Of a stretch of 36,786 bases of DNA, positions 14,053 through 35,832 are shown piece after piece. Where the stretch lies: the NCBI GenBank assembly GCA_947166655.1, contig CAMVFC010000022.1, forward strand, positions 1-36,786. The letters are read 5' to 3'. The position numbers and the translations under genes are program-made. The notes beneath the pieces are model-generated. The model worked only from the letters and a program-made list of their open reading frames with translations. It had not been told where the DNA came from and did not search any database. Numbering within the stretch: position 1 is the stretch's first letter; each line of letters starts with the position of its first letter. The stretch comes from an uncultured Prevotellaceae bacterium (lineage in GTDB: Bacteria; Bacteroidota; Bacteroidia; Bacteroidales; Bacteroidaceae).

Positions 14053-15564
14053 ATGAACAGAACCAGCATCATACGCGCCTGCTTCACCCACCGCTTCCAA
14101 CAGCTGAACGACTATGCTGCCAACGCGCGCGGCATACAGCAGAAAGTGCTCTTGCACCTCCTGGCCAAGGCCAAGAACACGGAGTGGGGCGTGCAGCATC
14201 ACTTCGCCGACATTCGCTCCTACGAGGAATTCGCAGCCGCCTGCCCCGTCAGCAGCTACGACGACCTGAAACAGCACATCGACCGAATGCGCCATGGCGA
14301 GCGCGACATCCTCTGGCCCGGACGCGTGAAATGGTTTGCCAAGTCGAGCGGAACCACCAGCGACAAGAGCAAATTCATCCCCGTCTCACCCGACGGACTC
14401 GACGACACCCACTATCAGGGAGGCACCGACGCCGTCGTCTTCTACCTGCACAACCATCCCGAAAGCCGTCTCTTCCAGGGACGCGCACTCATCCTCGGAG
14501 GCTCACACGCCCCCAACTATAACCTGCCAGGCTCGCTGGTGGGAGACCTCAGCGCCATCCTCATCGAGAATATCAACCCGCTGGTGAACATGTTACGCGT
14601 GCCCAAGAAGAGCACCGCGCTGCTCGCCGACTTCGAAGAGAAGCGCGACCGCATCGCCCGGGAAGCCATCGGCAAGGACGTCACCAACCTCTCCGGCGTG
14701 CCCTCATGGATGCTCTCCGTGCTCAACCGCGTGCTGGAGCTCTCCGGAAAGGACAACATCAGCCAGGTGTGGCCCAACCTGGAGGTATTCTTCCACGGCG
14801 GAGTGGCCTTCACGCCCTACCGCGAGCAGTACCGCCGCCTCATCCCAAGCCCTAAGATGAACTACATGGAGACCTACAATGCCTCCGAGGGCTTCTTCGG
14901 CTTACAGAACGATCCGGCTGACGCGGCGATGCTGCTGATGATCGATTACGGCGTATTCTTCGAGTTCATCCCCATGGACGAGCTGGAGAAAGAGCAGCCC
15001 ACCGTCGTCCCGCTCTGGGAAGTGCAGACGGGGAAGAACTACGCCATGGTCATCTCCACCAGCAGCGGCCTTTGGCGTTATCTCATCGGAGACACCGTGC
15101 GTTTCACCTCGACAGAGCCGTACAAGTTCATCATCACAGGCCGTACCAAGTTCTTCATCAATGCCTTCGGCGAGGAACTCATCGTGGACAACGCCGAGAA
15201 GGGCCTGGCAGAAGCCTGCCGACAGACGGGGGCGCACGTGCTGGAGTACACGGCGGCACCCATCTTCATGGACGACGAAGGGCACTGCCGCCATCAGTGG
15301 CTCGTGGAATTCGCCACGCCGCCCGCCGACATAGAGGCCTTTGCCGATGCGCTGGACCGAGCCTTGCAGACCATCAACTCTGACTACGAGGCCAAGCGCT
15401 TCAAGGACATCACCCTGCAGCGCCTGGAGCTCATCGTAGCACGCCCCGGGCTCTTCAACGACTGGCTCAAGGCGAAAGGCAAACTCGGAGGGCAGCACAA
15501 GGTGCCCCGACTGAGCAACAACCGCGATTTCATAGAGGAGATGCTGGCCATCAACGGGGAATGA
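14053..15564 (+). CDS. GH3 auxin-responsive promoter family acyl-adenylate-forming protein
   Basis: AKSSGTTSDKSKFIPVS, YNASEGFFG, RYLIGDTVRFTS motifs; start at MNRTSIIRA. Confidence 0.9.
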   Translation: MNRTSIIRACFTHRFQQLNDYAANARGIQQKVLLHLLAKAKNTEWGVQHHFADIRSYEEFAAACPVSSYDDLKQHIDRMRHGERDILWPGRVKWFAKSSGTTSDKSKFIPVSPDGLDDTHYQGGTDAVVFYLHNHPESRLFQGRALILGGSHAPNYNLPGSLVGDLSAILIENINPLVNMLRVPKKSTALLADFEEKRDRIAREAIGKDVTNLSGVPSWMLSVLNRVLELSGKDNISQVWPNLEVFFHGGVAFTPYREQYRRLIPSPKMNYMETYNASEGFFGLQNDPADAAMLLMIDYGVFFEFIPMDELEKEQPTVVPLWEVQTGKNYAMVISTSSGLWRYLIGDTVRFTSTEPYKFIITGRTKFFINAFGEELIVDNAEKGLAEACRQTGAHVLEYTAAPIFMDDEGHCRHQWLVEFATPPADIEAFADALDRALQTINSDYEAKRFKDITLQRLELIVARPGLFNDWLKAKGKLGGQHKVPRLSNNRDFIEEMLAINGE

Positions 15565-15660
15565 CGAATGATGAATGACGAGTGACGAATGATGAATGTC
15601 GGGTGACGAATGATGAATGTCGAGCGACAAACGACGAATAAGAAATGATCGAATAACAAA

Positions 15661-17790
15661 ATGACAATGAAGAGTTTCTTTATACGTTTATGGAAAGAAG
15701 GTCCTTTGTCTGTCTTTTCGGCAAAAACCGAAGAGCGCAAAGGCGATTCTCATTCGTCATTCATCACTCGTCACTCTTCATTCACGTCCCTTCATTCGTC
15801 ATTCGTCACTCGTCATTCATCATTCGTCATTCTCCTCCCCTTCACGCTCTTTCTTCTGCTTTCGGCCTGCGCCAGCATCGGCTCGCCCGACGGAGGGCCC
15901 TATGATGACACGCCGCCGCGCGTGCTTTCGGCATCGCCGGAGAACCAGGCTGTGGGCAACAAGAAGAGAGACATCAACATCTATTTCGACGAATACATCA
16001 AGCTGGAGAACGCCAGCGAGAAGGTCATCGTGTCGCCACTGCAGAAGGAAATGCCCAACATCCGCGCCGTAGGCAAGCGGGTGCGCATCACCCTTCACGA
16101 CTCGCTGCTGGCCAACACCACCTACACCGTGGACTTCGCCGACGCCATCGTGGACAACAACGAGGGCAACCCCATGGGCCACTACACCTACTCCTTCTCC
16201 ACGGGCAACGAGATCGACAGCATGGAAGTCTCGGGATACGTGCTGAACGCGGCCGACATGGAGCCCGTGAAAGGCATCCTCGTAGGCCTCTATGCCGAAC
16301 CTGCCGACTCGGTGCTGCCCGACTCGGTGCTGCGCACACGCCCCTTCGAACGCGTGGGACGCACCAACGGCGCGGGACGCTTCATCATCAAGGGCGTCGC
16401 TGCCGGACAGCGCTACAGAGCCTTCGCCTTGAAAGATGCCGACGGCGATTTCGTCTTCTCGCAGAAAAGCGAGCTCATCGCCTGGGACACCCTGCGCTTC
16501 TCGCCCTCATGCCGACCGGACATCCGCCTGGACACCATCTGGGCCGACTCCACACACTACGACAGCATCCAGCCCGTGCGCTACACCCACTTCTTCCCCG
16601 ACGACATCGTGCTGCGGGCCTTCCTCGAAGAGGGGCAAGACCGTCACCTGCTGAAGCATGAGCGACTCGTGCCCGAGAAGTTCTCCTTCTACTTCACCGC
16701 GCCTGCCGACACGCTGCCCATCATCCGGGGCATCAACTTCGAGGGCGACGGAGGATTCGTCATCGAGCCGTCGATGGGCGGCGACACCGTCACGTACTGG
16801 ATTCCCGACACCACCATCGCCTACGCCGACACGCTATCGATGTACTTCTCCTATCAGGAGACCGACACCACCGGCGTGCTCGCCTGGCGGACAGACACGC
16901 TCGACCTCGTCCCGAAAGAGACCCGCGCACAGCAGCTGAAGGAGCTGCAGAAGAAGACGGAGGAATGGGAGAAGGAGCAGAAAAAGAAACAGCGACGCAA
17001 CAAAAACCTGCCGCCCGAAGAGAACCCACACCTGACGACGTACCTCAACATCGACTGCAAGCCTGCTGGCACCATCGACCCCTTCCACCGGCCGACGCTG
17101 ACGTTCTCCGAGCCGCTGGCAGCCATGGACACCGCAGGCGTTCACTTCACGATAAAGGTGGACTCGCTGTGGCTGGACACGGCCTATGCCATCACGCCCT
17201 CCGACCTCAACCCGCGACTGCTGCAGTTCAGCGCAGAATGGGAACTGGGACAGCAGTACCAGCTCGTCATCGACAGCGCGGCCTTCACCAGCATCTTCGG
17301 ACATGTCAACAGACCCATGAAGCTGGACTTCAGAGTACATAAGGAAGAAGACTACGGAGCCCTCTTCATACAGGTGCAGCTGCCAGACACCGTGCCCGTC
17401 GTCGTGCAACTCATGAACGCCTCCGACAAGCCCGTGCGAACCGAGACCGCCGGCCCCGACGGACGCGCCGACTTCTTCTACCTGAAGCCCGGCGAATACT
17501 ACCTGCGCTGCTTCGAAGACAGAAATGCCGACGGCCTCTGGACCACCGGCGAATTCGACCTTCGCCGACAGCCAGAACAACTCTACTACTTCCCCCGACC
17601 GCTCAACGTCAAGGCGCAGTGGGAGGTGGAGCAGAAATGGGACTGCCGCGGCATACCCGCCTACCGGCAGAAGCCCGCCAAGATCACCAAACAGAAGCCC
17701 GACAAGCAAAAGAAAGTGCACGACCGCAACCGCGAGCGCGAAGAAAGAAAGCGCAACTCGGGCTCGCGCTCTTCGCGCAGCAGACGCTGA
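15661..17790 (+). CDS. Ig-like domain lipoprotein (Bacteroidetes Big_5-type)
   Basis: Lipobox-like LFLLLSACASIGSPDGGPYDDTPPRV; NxxIYFDEYIKLENASEKVIVSPL. N-terminus contains heptamer repeats, so the start is uncertain. Confidence 0.82.
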   Translation: MTMKSFFIRLWKEGPLSVFSAKTEERKGDSHSSFITRHSSFTSLHSSFVTRHSSFVILLPFTLFLLLSACASIGSPDGGPYDDTPPRVLSASPENQAVGNKKRDINIYFDEYIKLENASEKVIVSPLQKEMPNIRAVGKRVRITLHDSLLANTTYTVDFADAIVDNNEGNPMGHYTYSFSTGNEIDSMEVSGYVLNAADMEPVKGILVGLYAEPADSVLPDSVLRTRPFERVGRTNGAGRFIIKGVAAGQRYRAFALKDADGDFVFSQKSELIAWDTLRFSPSCRPDIRLDTIWADSTHYDSIQPVRYTHFFPDDIVLRAFLEEGQDRHLLKHERLVPEKFSFYFTAPADTLPIIRGINFEGDGGFVIEPSMGGDTVTYWIPDTTIAYADTLSMYFSYQETDTTGVLAWRTDTLDLVPKETRAQQLKELQKKTEEWEKEQKKKQRRNKNLPPEENPHLTTYLNIDCKPAGTIDPFHRPTLTFSEPLAAMDTAGVHFTIKVDSLWLDTAYAITPSDLNPRLLQFSAEWELGQQYQLVIDSAAFTSIFGHVNRPMKLDFRVHKEEDYGALFIQVQLPDTVPVVVQLMNASDKPVRTETAGPDGRADFFYLKPGEYYLRCFEDRNADGLWTTGEFDLRRQPEQLYYFPRPLNVKAQWEVEQKWDCRGIPAYRQKPAKITKQKPDKQKKVHDRNREREERKRNSGSRSSRSRR
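15750..15833 (+). repeat. Twelve degenerate heptamers TCAYTCR inside the N-terminal coding region of the lipoprotein ORF
   Basis: TCATTCG TCATTCA TCACTCG TCACTCT TCATTCA CGTCCCT TCATTCG TCATTCG TCACTCG TCATTCA TCATTCG TCATTCT. Confidence 0.88.
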
Positions 17791-31956: not shown

Positions 31957-33690
31957 ATGAAAGAAGAGAACGTATGGGAAGAGGATATCCACGTCAACCC
32001 TGCACAGATGGCTTTCATGATGATGCCGGCACGGAACAAGTACCTCGTCTGGAGCCGTGGTACCGGCAAATCGTTCATTGTCGGAGCAGAGGTGGACGAG
32101 AACGTGCGCCTGATGCCACGAGGCATCACCACGCTGGCTCAGGCTACCTACGGACAGGCACTGACGAAGACGCTTCCGTCAACCTTCAAGATGCTGGAGA
32201 TGCTGGGCTACCGCAAATACGACCCAAAGACGGGCATCGGCGACTATGTGGTTTGCCGGCAGCCACCTGCAGGATGGTACCTGCCATACGAACACCTGCT
32301 CAGCTTCGAGCACTGTATCTCCTTCGCGAACGGACATGCCCTCTACATCCTCACTCAGGACGGCAACAGCCGAGGACCTAACGCCGACTACAACATCACA
32401 GATGAAGCCCTGACGCTGGACAAGGAGCAGTTCGACCAGGAGGTAGCGCCGACGAACCGTGGCAATGAACACGTCTTCGGACGGCTGTCACCCCACCCGC
32501 TGATGAAGCATCATGGCAATACGTTCCTCTCATCAATGCCCTATGAGCCGAAACAGAAATGGCTGCTGGAACCGGCCAAATATTACGAGGAGGAACGTGG
32601 CGTGCAGCTCTTCGACGTCTGGAACCGCATCGTCCGGCTGCAGATGACACTCGTGGATGCACGCCTGACAAATGATGCAGCACAGTTCCGCGAGGTGTGG
32701 AACGAGGTGCTGCGACTCCGACGACAGATACAACCCTTCGTCAGCCGCGACGGAACGCTGTTCATGCTGGCCAGCATCTTCGACAACATCGCTAACGTGG
32801 GCATGTCGTACATCATCAACCAATATAAGGTGATGGCAAAGCTGCAGTTCATGATCGAGATCCTGAACTATGTGGTCGACAAGATTGACCACTGCTACTA
32901 CCAGCTCTCTGATCAGCACAAATACTACCACGCCGACAACGATGCCTTCATCCGTGATTTCGCCGATGATACGAACTTCGCCTGGCAGAAACTCGCAGAA
33001 CGCGACAGTCGCATGGATGCCGACTGCAACCCATCGGAACCGCTCGAAGTATGCTTCGACTGGGGTTCTTCGGCATCGTTCATGGAGGTGGCACAGCCCT
33101 CGCATTTCGACTGGACGACGAAGATGCTGATGCCTGACCGCATCGTTGACAACACGATCAACGAGTTCTTCGTCAAGCGCGAGGAGGAACAGGACACCGA
33201 GGTCAATGCTCTCGTGGACCGCTTCGCAGAATACTACCGCTACCATACCAACAAACTCGTCATCTTCTACCGCGACCGCTATGGCGATGCACACCGGGCC
33301 AACAGCCGACGCACGTACAACGAACTGGCCATCGCACGACTGCAGAAGTACGGATGGAGGGTGGAGACACGTGCACACCGGGGCATGGAACCGCCACAAC
33401 ATGACAAGTATCTCCTGTGGTCATACATCCTCGCAGAGACCGACACACGCTTCCCCATCAAGCGCTTTAACGCTGTCCACTGCAAGTACATCCTCATCTC
33501 CATGAACAATACACGTGTCCGGCAGTCGCCCTCCACGGGCCGCTTCGAGAAGGACAAACGCTCGGAGCGCAACGACAGCATCCTGCCCGAGGAAGCTACA
33601 CACTTCGGCGACGTCGTGGACAAACGCATCTGGACCAAGTACGGCGACCTGCTGCAGAAACAGTACTCGTTCGTCGACGTGCGCCTGTGA
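31957..33690 (+). CDS. Phage terminase large subunit-like ATPase/nuclease
   Basis: KYLVWSRGTGKSFIVGAEVDENVRLMPRG Walker A; YNITDEA Walker-B-like; VCFDWGSSASF and VIFYRDRYGD nuclease-like acidic motifs. Confidence 0.8.
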   Translation: MKEENVWEEDIHVNPAQMAFMMMPARNKYLVWSRGTGKSFIVGAEVDENVRLMPRGITTLAQATYGQALTKTLPSTFKMLEMLGYRKYDPKTGIGDYVVCRQPPAGWYLPYEHLLSFEHCISFANGHALYILTQDGNSRGPNADYNITDEALTLDKEQFDQEVAPTNRGNEHVFGRLSPHPLMKHHGNTFLSSMPYEPKQKWLLEPAKYYEEERGVQLFDVWNRIVRLQMTLVDARLTNDAAQFREVWNEVLRLRRQIQPFVSRDGTLFMLASIFDNIANVGMSYIINQYKVMAKLQFMIEILNYVVDKIDHCYYQLSDQHKYYHADNDAFIRDFADDTNFAWQKLAERDSRMDADCNPSEPLEVCFDWGSSASFMEVAQPSHFDWTTKMLMPDRIVDNTINEFFVKREEEQDTEVNALVDRFAEYYRYHTNKLVIFYRDRYGDAHRANSRRTYNELAIARLQKYGWRVETRAHRGMEPPQHDKYLLWSYILAETDTRFPIKRFNAVHCKYILISMNNTRVRQSPSTGRFEKDKRSERNDSILPEEATHFGDVVDKRIWTKYGDLLQKQYSFVDVRL

Positions 33691-33739
33691 GGTGAACGAA
33701 CCGCACTTGGCTGCTGCTCTTGATGGAACCATAGCACAT
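33596..33739 (-). pseudogene. Truncated mirror copy of the 34454 ORF, running antisense into the terL 3' end
   Basis: MCYGSIKSSSQVRFVHLTGA versus MVQSIKSSNQVWHVHVTGI of 34454..34798. Confidence 0.6.
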
Positions 33740-33747
33740 ACATTCTT

Positions 33748-33774
33748 CCCCGTGACGTGAGTTGCGGGGTTTTT
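33748..33774 (+). terminator. Rho-independent terminator after terL
   Basis: CCCCG-tgacgtgagttg-CGGGG followed by TTTTTCG. Confidence 0.65.
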
Positions 33775-33870
33775 CGTTTCTATAGCCTGATGCCGGTTGC
33801 CGTCGCCGCCCTGTGTGATTCTCGGGCGGCTGCGCTGTGAGATCCACCACAGGCCTCGTGCTCCGCTCTC

Positions 33871-33948
33871 CTAACCCTGAATCTCTCTGTTTCTGGCCCT
33901 GAGGAGGCAGCGGCGGTGGCTGCAGGCACGGGAGCCGGAGGTCATGGA
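33871..33948 (-). pseudogene. Truncated mirror copy of the 34215 ORF
   Basis: SMTSGSRACSHRRCLLRARNREIQG* versus YMTSSFRTRSHRRCLLSNQFTVEIQD; approximate start. Confidence 0.6.
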
Positions 33949-34116
33949 GTTGTCGTCGTGAGTTTTTGGTGTGAATGAACAAACGACTTTTTCCGCTGCA
34001 AAGGTAATTCGCCGTCTTCCGCTGCAAGGATGTCCGGAGGACTTGGCTTCAATAATTATTTTCACACAAATAAGCCGTGCCCAGGGGCTGACTGATTTCT
34101 GCTGGCGCCCTGAAGG

Positions 34117-34545
34117 GTGAAAATAATTCTCTGCGTCCTTGCACCGATGCACCTGGCTTACCTTGGCAAAGCAACGTAAAAAATCTATTCATCCACCCTA
34201 AAAACTTCATCACAATGACAACTCCTTACATGACTTCCAGCTTCCGCACCCGCAGCCACCGCCGCTGCCTCCTCAGCAACCAGTTCACCGTCGAGATCCA
34301 GGACTTCGACGGAGATCAGATCACCTACGAGGTCTGCGCCGAATCTCACCACGAAGCTGCACGAGAAGCACACGAACTGGCCTATGCCGATGGCATACAA
34401 ATCAACATCATGACTATCTACGAATTCTAATAACCCTCTAAACATCTCACATCATGGAAAAGAATGTTATCATCGCAGAAATGGTTCAATCCATCAAGAG
34501 CAGCAACCAAGTGTGGCACGTACACGTCACCGGCATCGACAACCC
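34117..34545 (+). repeat. Right arm of the large inverted duplication (intact genes)
   Basis: See left arm; innermost exact inverted pair AATTATTTTCAC (34054-34065) / GTGAAAATAATT (34117-34128). Confidence 0.85.
34215..34430 (+). CDS. Hypothetical small protein (mirror-duplicated gene A)
   Basis: 71-aa ORF; 5' part and upstream region duplicated in inverted orientation at 33871-34065. Confidence 0.6.
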   Translation: MTTPYMTSSFRTRSHRRCLLSNQFTVEIQDFDGDQITYEVCAESHHEAAREAHELAYADGIQINIMTIYEF

Positions 34546-34798
34546 TGAGCTGCAGGGATACTGCAAGCAACCACTCGCCGCCATACGCCTGGCGTTTATC
34601 CTCAAACAACGTTCCGGCTATATGATCTCGGGCACATCCCTGCAGACACTCCAGCAGCTGTACAAGGCGTCGAAGCAGCCCGCAGAGGTCAAGCAGCCGG
34701 CAGAGCCTGAGGCCACTGTGCCCGCAGGTTCTCCCGAAGGGGATTCCACCCCGGCCAAGAAGACACGCCGCACAAAGCGAGAGAAGGCAGCCCAATGA
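34454..34798 (+). CDS. Hypothetical protein with basic Lys/Arg-rich tail (mirror-duplicated gene B)
   Basis: 114-aa ORF; C-terminal AKKTRRTKREKAAQ. Confidence 0.65.
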   Translation: MEKNVIIAEMVQSIKSSNQVWHVHVTGIDNPELQGYCKQPLAAIRLAFILKQRSGYMISGTSLQTLQQLYKASKQPAEVKQPAEPEATVPAGSPEGDSTPAKKTRRTKREKAAQ

Positions 34799-34815: not shown

Positions 34816-35364
34816 ATGTATGACCAGCTAAAAGGAGATACGGCCATGCTGAAGTACGCACTCTATGATTACATCCCCCGCCGGCAACAACGCCGGGCCA
34901 CCTTCGAGCAGCAGGAGACGTGCCGCCGGATCCTCGACTTCAAGGACGGCCGCAACTACGCCAAGCAGTGGGCGGCCACGGAGATAGGACGAGCACTACA
35001 CGCGGCGAAGCTCAGCGAAGTGGTCATCGTGTGCGTGCCGGCAAGCTGCCAGCACACATACGTGCGACGCTACAAGAAGTTCTCGCAGATGCTGTGTGCC
35101 ATCCTCGGGACGGCCAACGGCTTCGATTGCATTGAAGTCATCGGCCATCGCAAGAAGGCACACCATGGAGCACCCAGGGACGAGCGCCTGGTCCAAAACG
35201 TCGCCATCAGCAGCAGCCTGCGCGGACGCAAGGTGCTGGTCATCGACGACATCTACACCACAGGCGCGACATCGGATGCCTTCATCCGACGGCTCTGCGC
35301 CGTGGGCGCAACGGTCTGCGGTGCTGTGTTCCTGGGCAAGACCCGCCAACACAGGACCGCATGA
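34816..35364 (+). CDS. Phosphoribosyltransferase (ComF-like type I PRTase)
   Basis: VLVIDDIYTTGATSDAF PRPP-binding loop; IVCVPAS; alternative start at 34846 preceded by aaaggagat. Confidence 0.8.
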   Translation: MYDQLKGDTAMLKYALYDYIPRRQQRRATFEQQETCRRILDFKDGRNYAKQWAATEIGRALHAAKLSEVVIVCVPASCQHTYVRRYKKFSQMLCAILGTANGFDCIEVIGHRKKAHHGAPRDERLVQNVAISSSLRGRKVLVIDDIYTTGATSDAFIRRLCAVGATVCGAVFLGKTRQHRTA

Positions 35365-35400: not shown

Positions 35401-35486
35401 GTGTCGCGCCTACCGTTCCCGCCCACCCTGAGCCGTTCGCAGTGGCCAGGGTCATTGCTCATGCCCGGGGACGGTAGGCGCGACAC
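35401..35486. repeat. 86-nt nested inverted repeat / structured element
   Basis: Outer arms GTGTCGCGCCTACCGTTCCCG (35401-35421) and CGGGGACGGTAGGCGCGACAC (35466-35486), 20/21 complementary; inner stem ACCCTG-a-GCC / GGC-CAGGGT (35425-35452). Confidence 0.85.
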
Positions 35487-35832
35487 CACAGCGCACAAAC
35501 GCCACGCTCCCGCAGACACATCGCCGTACAGGTCACGCTCACACTGCTTCTGACTGTCCACGCCTGCGCCGCGCATGAAGCTGGTGCCCGTGACTTGCAC
35601 GGTGAAGAGTCTGCTGGGACTGGCTATCGAGAGCATAGGACTATGCACTCGACTCCGCACCGCAGCCACAGGACTGCGCCCGCGCTGCGGTGTAGGACAA
35701 GGCTTGCTGCACTGCGCTCTGATGCGGTGCCCGCAGTTGTACCGAGGGGGAGGGTGCCCGTCATATTTCCTATATGACTGCGGAAGGGGCTGCGGCGCGG
35801 CTTAGGGCGCGTCGGACTTCACTGTGAAAAAA

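Follow-up and report, generated by a model that had tools for sequence, protein, structure and literature searches.

Among described elements, those that most closely resemble the locus analysed here are the Frpo/ssi elements of the conjugative plasmids F and ColIb-P9, in which a stem-loop located 5' of anti-restriction genes rebuilds a promoter and one folded strand serves as the template. The Frpo stem-loop restores the -10/-35 boxes and directs the expression of early leading genes in vivo (PMC9849209; survey PMC11541004), and ArdC has to be present in the recipient when conjugation takes place (PMC7213743). The Frpo elements described so far are non-coding and span about 300 nt. Template switching during replication homogenises the arms of imperfect inverted repeats and makes or maintains hairpins (PMC8604942, PMC8794818, PMC7202029); the known quasipalindromes of this type are mostly short. 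Long inverted repeats overlapping coding sequence have been described in the mitochondria of Nematomorpha (PMC6649704), where both arms are protein-coding within one gene.

The mirror described below would share with Frpo/ssi a putative promoter-rebuilding stem-loop 5' of anti-restriction-type genes, with one folded strand as the candidate template. Unlike Frpo/ssi, its arms are operon-length, overlap coding sequence and track their own gene; moreover, the promoter is of the Bacteroidota type and the setting is a prophage. Frpo/ssi lie in the conjugative leading region, whereas the analysed DNA and its close relatives are prophages; a similar layout occurs in the conjugative plasmid p5482, in a leading region that, like the oriT and the transferred strand, was inferred from gene order only. 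Frpo/ssi precede early anti-defence genes, while the mirrors precede ArdA or ArdC at some loci and genes lacking database matches (p71 and p114) elsewhere. In contrast to the Nematomorpha palindromes, one arm of the mirror is non-coding, and the structure spans a promoter and an operon.

Inverted duplication 3' of the terL-like gene

The window, i.e., the whole stretch of 36,786 nucleotides that was analysed, corresponds to an entire contig of a metagenome-assembled genome and comprises a prophage and the end of a Bacteroidaceae chromosome. Its initial 18.7 kb contains host genes (e.g., acetate kinase, phosphotransacetylase, an OPT transporter and GH3), and the remainder is prophage, with genes for a primase-like protein, a head maturation protease, tail proteins and an endonuclease, followed by a terL-like gene and then a phosphoribosyltransferase. 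The head protease, portal-like and terL-like genes of this prophage and its relatives indicate that they are presumably tailed dsDNA phages. The terL-like gene (31957–33690, plus strand, 577 aa) owes its name to the preliminary description of this DNA; its product gave no match over threshold in Pfam or PHROGs and is 67–94% identical across the 20 viral contigs found.

Gapped self-comparison of the window yielded one collinear inverted pair, minus strand 33669–34030 with plus strand 34136–34543, so that the previously reported inverted duplication is real. The non-coding left arm (33669–34065, minus strand) reaches the end of terL, and the right arm (34117–34545, plus strand) holds a leader, complete p71 and the beginning of p114. 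The perfect 12-nt inner arms, AATTATTTTCAC at 34054–34065 and GTGAAAATAATT at 34117–34128, are separated by a 51-nt centre (34066–34116) that is partly conserved in relatives, and outer blocks pair at 33899–33946/34229–34276 (88%) and 33683–33727/34490–34534 (84%). The alignment score of the mirror was 333, against no more than 111 for shuffles and no more than 127 for other parts of the window. When the whole window was scanned for mirrors, the terL-adjacent structure came first (326), the next score (185) belonging to a host simple repeat. Several details noted earlier were also borne out, namely an exact 25-mer common to both arms, the absence of any visible transposase at the mirror site and the internal shortening of the left arm. 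In our alignments, which are partly uncertain where arms are gapped, this shortening consists of many small gaps, mostly of 3–6 nt. Separately, an inverted pair of host simple repeats (units like GACGAATGATGAATG) lies at 15556–15835, between the GH3 gene and a gene for a Big_5 protein.

The mirrored genes are p71 (34215–34430, plus strand), encoding a 71-aa protein of a beta-alpha-beta family that was modelled at moderate confidence only, and p114 (34454–34798, plus strand), whose 114-aa product has a folded N-terminal domain and a disordered basic tail. Both genes are coding and under purifying selection (dN/dS 0.01–0.38), and their reading frames are not kept in the left arm. Searches of Pfam, PHROGs, NCBIfam and PADLOC with the two proteins returned nothing meaningful, a search for PDB folds gave no match for p114, and neither protein showed a sequence or fold relation to ArdA or ArdC. 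The p114 gene was not found in the phage collection or the plasmid collection and, in an order-wide sample, occurred only in the window's own genome. An anti-defence role is proposed for p71 and p114.

The left arm also contains a terminator-like hairpin with a T-run (33748–33779, plus strand), read from the sequence and apparently serving terL. The mirror core is lacking in L008, yet a similar hairpin is retained there 3' of terL, where a HicA/HicB-like pair (likewise read from the sequence) stands in place of the p71/p114 cassette. In L009, a truncated phosphoribosyltransferase gene lies directly 3' of terL, as though the mirror and operon had been deleted. Downstream of p114 in the window, a domain match identifies the phosphoribosyltransferase-domain protein (34816–35364, plus strand). 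It is followed, at 35401–35486 and 35575–35805, by an inverted repeat of 21 nt (95%) and by a GC-rich stretch with a 76-aa ORF, the GC-rich stretch having more than one match in L006 and L007 and being present in L009 as well.

Recurrence of the mirror and its gene association

Three close relatives among those found by terL keep the mirror clearly. The p71/p114 core is present in same-genus genomes, and a profile search with p114 added 14 genomes of the family; at most of these loci, a mirror lies 5' of the p71/p114 operon with a score of 72–429 vs a background median of about 28, L106 being an example of a weak or ambiguous one. The p71/p114 mirrors span several genera within one bacterial family, and each copies its own operon. 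Mirrors occupy the same place in L017–L019 and, in shorter form, in L010, L013, L014, L020, L021 and L057, with quite different right-arm sequences; no mirror was detectable in L008, L016, L055 and L058. Across loci, the arms measure about 80–790 nt. The mirror of L101 spans the operon as far as a terminator-like hairpin 3' of p114, and that of L063–L065 spans both p71 and p114 under very permissive scoring, which runs into random sequence and was superseded by a stricter one.

A scan of 837 kb of fetched sequence located hardly any strong mirror away from p71/p114, ArdC or ArdA; the only ones elsewhere were in a GC-rich region of L007/L023, at one site in L069 and at the host repeat of the window. 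ArdC (PF08401, E 2e-25) is mirrored in L102 and L125, and ArdA (PF07275, E 2e-34) in L075. The ArdA mirror (L075:18199–19589) is the second of its contig, about 11 kb from a p71/p114 mirror. An inverted pair with arms of about 230 nt and a score of 90 was observed at L069:9270–9740. In the conjugative plasmid p5482, the single clear mirror in 33 kb lies 5' of ArdC, with arms of about 130 nt, and inspection located ACCTTTGC in its left arm but not in its right arm. The mirror of L122 is weaker than that of p5482, and no clear mirror was found at the majority of the other ArdC loci inspected in plasmids and phage contigs. A long conserved motif of the left arm was absent from the plasmids searched and was present in 1 of 399 genomes.

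These data bear on the earlier suggestion that the structure is a packaging or replication palindrome. Such a palindrome would agree with the position of the mirror beside the terL-like gene in the window. However, the mirror goes with p71/p114, ArdC or ArdA and not with terL: L063–L065 are prophage-end copies with host DNA to the left of the mirror, and the second copy of L075 is found at ArdA. An assembly artefact is hardly compatible with arms that are so diverged (about 82% alike in the window) and with the same layout, made of other sequences, in independent assemblies. We therefore regard both a packaging palindrome and an artefact as highly improbable.

Evolution of the two arms

The left arm had been described as a decayed mirror copy of a promoter and two small genes. 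The mirroring of the promoter and both genes, with divergent promoters, is upheld by our analysis, but a merely decayed copy does not account for the data, since in many relatives the left arm tracks its own right arm and retains a consensus promoter that is usually missing from the latter. In a matrix of 12 genomes, nine left arms matched their own right arm best, and the other three matched the right arm of a very close relative slightly better. Left arms of different lineages resemble their own right arms more than they resemble each other. At sites where right arms differ, the left arm agreed with its own right arm in 127 cases, and the reverse was found in 23; as independent decay would give equal counts, this ratio signals tracking, although it carries no formal probability because the pairs have some genomes in common. 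The tracking was weak in some close pairs (4:8 in L097/L099 and 1:0 in L006/L053). Simple re-duplication, independent in every lineage, was weighed as a complete account and is countered by deletions common to the left arms of L063 and L064, between which each arm tracks its own right arm, and by shared derived features of the window and L006. The alignments gave the impression that the gaps are regularly spaced; the spacings averaged about 28 with a standard deviation of about 18, and due to this wide spread no periodicity is claimed.

Two explanations suit the tracking, namely selection for pairing of the arms or template switching in patches. According to the latter, an ancient inverted duplication that surrounds a pair of divergent promoters persists as a neutral quasipalindrome, with short patches of the selected right arm being recopied into a functionless left arm during replication. 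The homogenisation of arms known from template-switch quasipalindromes has its counterpart here in the own-arm matching of imperfect repeats, the tracking is episodic (strong between lineages and weak in some close pairs), and left arms lose sequence: across 13 independent loci, they miss 1391 nt in 553 events, compared with 454 nt in 232 events for right arms. On the other hand, patch copying should repair the small deletions and the difference in the -7 region described below, but both persist between tracked sites and across lineages. The near confinement of the mirrors to anti-restriction-type operons and the comparable layout in p5482 also speak against neutral recopying; furthermore, the mirrors differ from known cases in their arms of hundreds of nucleotides, their fixed promoter asymmetry and their association with gene families. 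We consider a purely neutral origin of the tracking, which is the chief competitor of the interpretation favoured below, possible but somewhat doubtful.

Promoter asymmetry and a candidate single-strand promoter

The Bacteroidota -33/-7 consensus was scored as TTG-N16-21-TAnnTTTG. The left arm of the window contains a candidate promoter, TTG-N18-TACCTTTG (33999–34027, minus strand); the minus strand of the window holds one further full match. At the aligned position of the right arm (34139–34166, plus strand), the -7 region reads TACCTTGG and is non-consensus. Of 24 prophage loci, 20 have the full consensus in the left arm and none has it in the right arm, against a background of 23 in 1004 windows of 350 nt. 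A GTAAAA-type stretch is conserved at the corresponding position of the right arm in most loci. The ArdA locus of L075 is an exception: the full consensus is in its right arm, and its left arm has the -7 part only.

The arms also differ in a strand-specific manner. Right-to-left changes that keep G-T/G-U wobble pairing favoured the minus over the plus strand by 239:97 and in 13 of 13 loci; a transversion control for this excess gave 273:229 (p 1e-6). When folded as DNA, the mirror core reached a z of -4.7 on the minus strand (0 of 100 shuffles as good) and of -3.2 on the plus strand, and the minus-strand RNA folded better than the plus-strand RNA in 9 of 9 loci tested. In a comparison of compensatory wobbles, with left arms agreeing and right arms differing, the two kinds were nearly equal (58:50). 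Since the wobble signal may thus be mutational, we treat the minus-strand signal of wobble and folding as tentative.

The preliminary description had also raised a divergent regulatory hub and a source of mimic RNA, both of which are possible readings. In the RNA-based version, a non-coding RNA from the strong left promoter would mimic the p71/p114 mRNA and thereby titrate either a regulator or antisense RNA; alternatively, the operon would be regulated by an extended minus-strand transcript folded into a rod. The leftward consensus promoter, the better folding of the minus RNA and the wobble excess on that strand are consistent with such a device. However, a search of Rfam gave only a chance-level match, far under the gathering score, and the left transcript and the mRNA, having the same sense, would not be expected to pair; to our knowledge, no mimic RNA copies a whole operon. 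An RNA device is accordingly unlikely.

Hairpins at the ends of insertion sequences guard the transposase from read-through, as an inverted repeat 5' of the gene forms a hairpin in the read-through mRNA. By analogy, a plus-strand transcript from terL or host genes could fold the left arm onto the right arm and stop translation of p71/p114. The layout is compatible with such a read-through hairpin. Nevertheless, such a guard would act on the plus strand, whereas it is the minus strand that shows the wobble bias and folds better, and the left arm already holds a terminator-like hairpin; moreover, unlike the ends of insertion sequences, the mirror arms include whole genes. A read-through guard is consequently very unlikely.

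We favour the interpretation that the two arms form a functional pair and that the minus strand, once folded, provides anti-restriction genes with a single-strand promoter of the Frpo type, to which we assign a probability of about 0.38. If the minus strand became single-stranded, its left arm would pair with its right arm; in this hairpin, the minus strand of the right arm would be the template for p71/p114 (ArdC or ArdA in relatives), and the left arm would replace the absent non-template strand and provide the consensus -33/-7 promoter. This might enable the RNA polymerase of the host to transcribe the anti-restriction operon ahead of complementary-strand synthesis, or in its absence, as at the Frpo/ssi promoters of conjugative plasmids; with a mirror of gene length, the arms might also re-anneal behind the polymerase and free the mRNA. 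The layout suits such a promoter because the stem-loop strand is the gene template and the consensus boxes are on the opposite arm. Promoter asymmetry, tracking, the anti-restriction association, minus-strand wobble and folding, and the layout of p5482 all argue in favour of the hairpin promoter, whereas the nearly equal counts of the second wobble comparison, the right-arm consensus at ArdA, the weak tracking in some close pairs, the lack of clear mirrors at most other ArdC loci checked and the shorter, non-coding nature of known Frpo elements weaken it. The probability was set at this level since the phages apparently have dsDNA genomes and we know of no single-stranded stage at their entry. 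It is a tentative, rather speculative extension that, in Bacteroidota, operon-length, self-tracking mirrors form a class of elements by which invading dsDNA prophages as well as conjugative plasmids express anti-restriction genes from a single DNA strand, the mirror arm serving as an internal non-template strand.

In conclusion, many prophages carry, mainly at anti-restriction-type operons, a non-coding arm whose sequence keeps pace with that of the adjacent genes for hundreds of bases, and no earlier description of such an arrangement was found in the literature. If template switching is responsible, the mirrors would represent an unusually long natural case of arm homogenisation. If the mirror is a single-strand promoter, the Frpo concept would apply in Bacteroidota and in phages as well; one would then have to ask at what point phage DNA becomes single-stranded, and the mirror would provide a sequence signature for new anti-defence genes such as p71 and p114.
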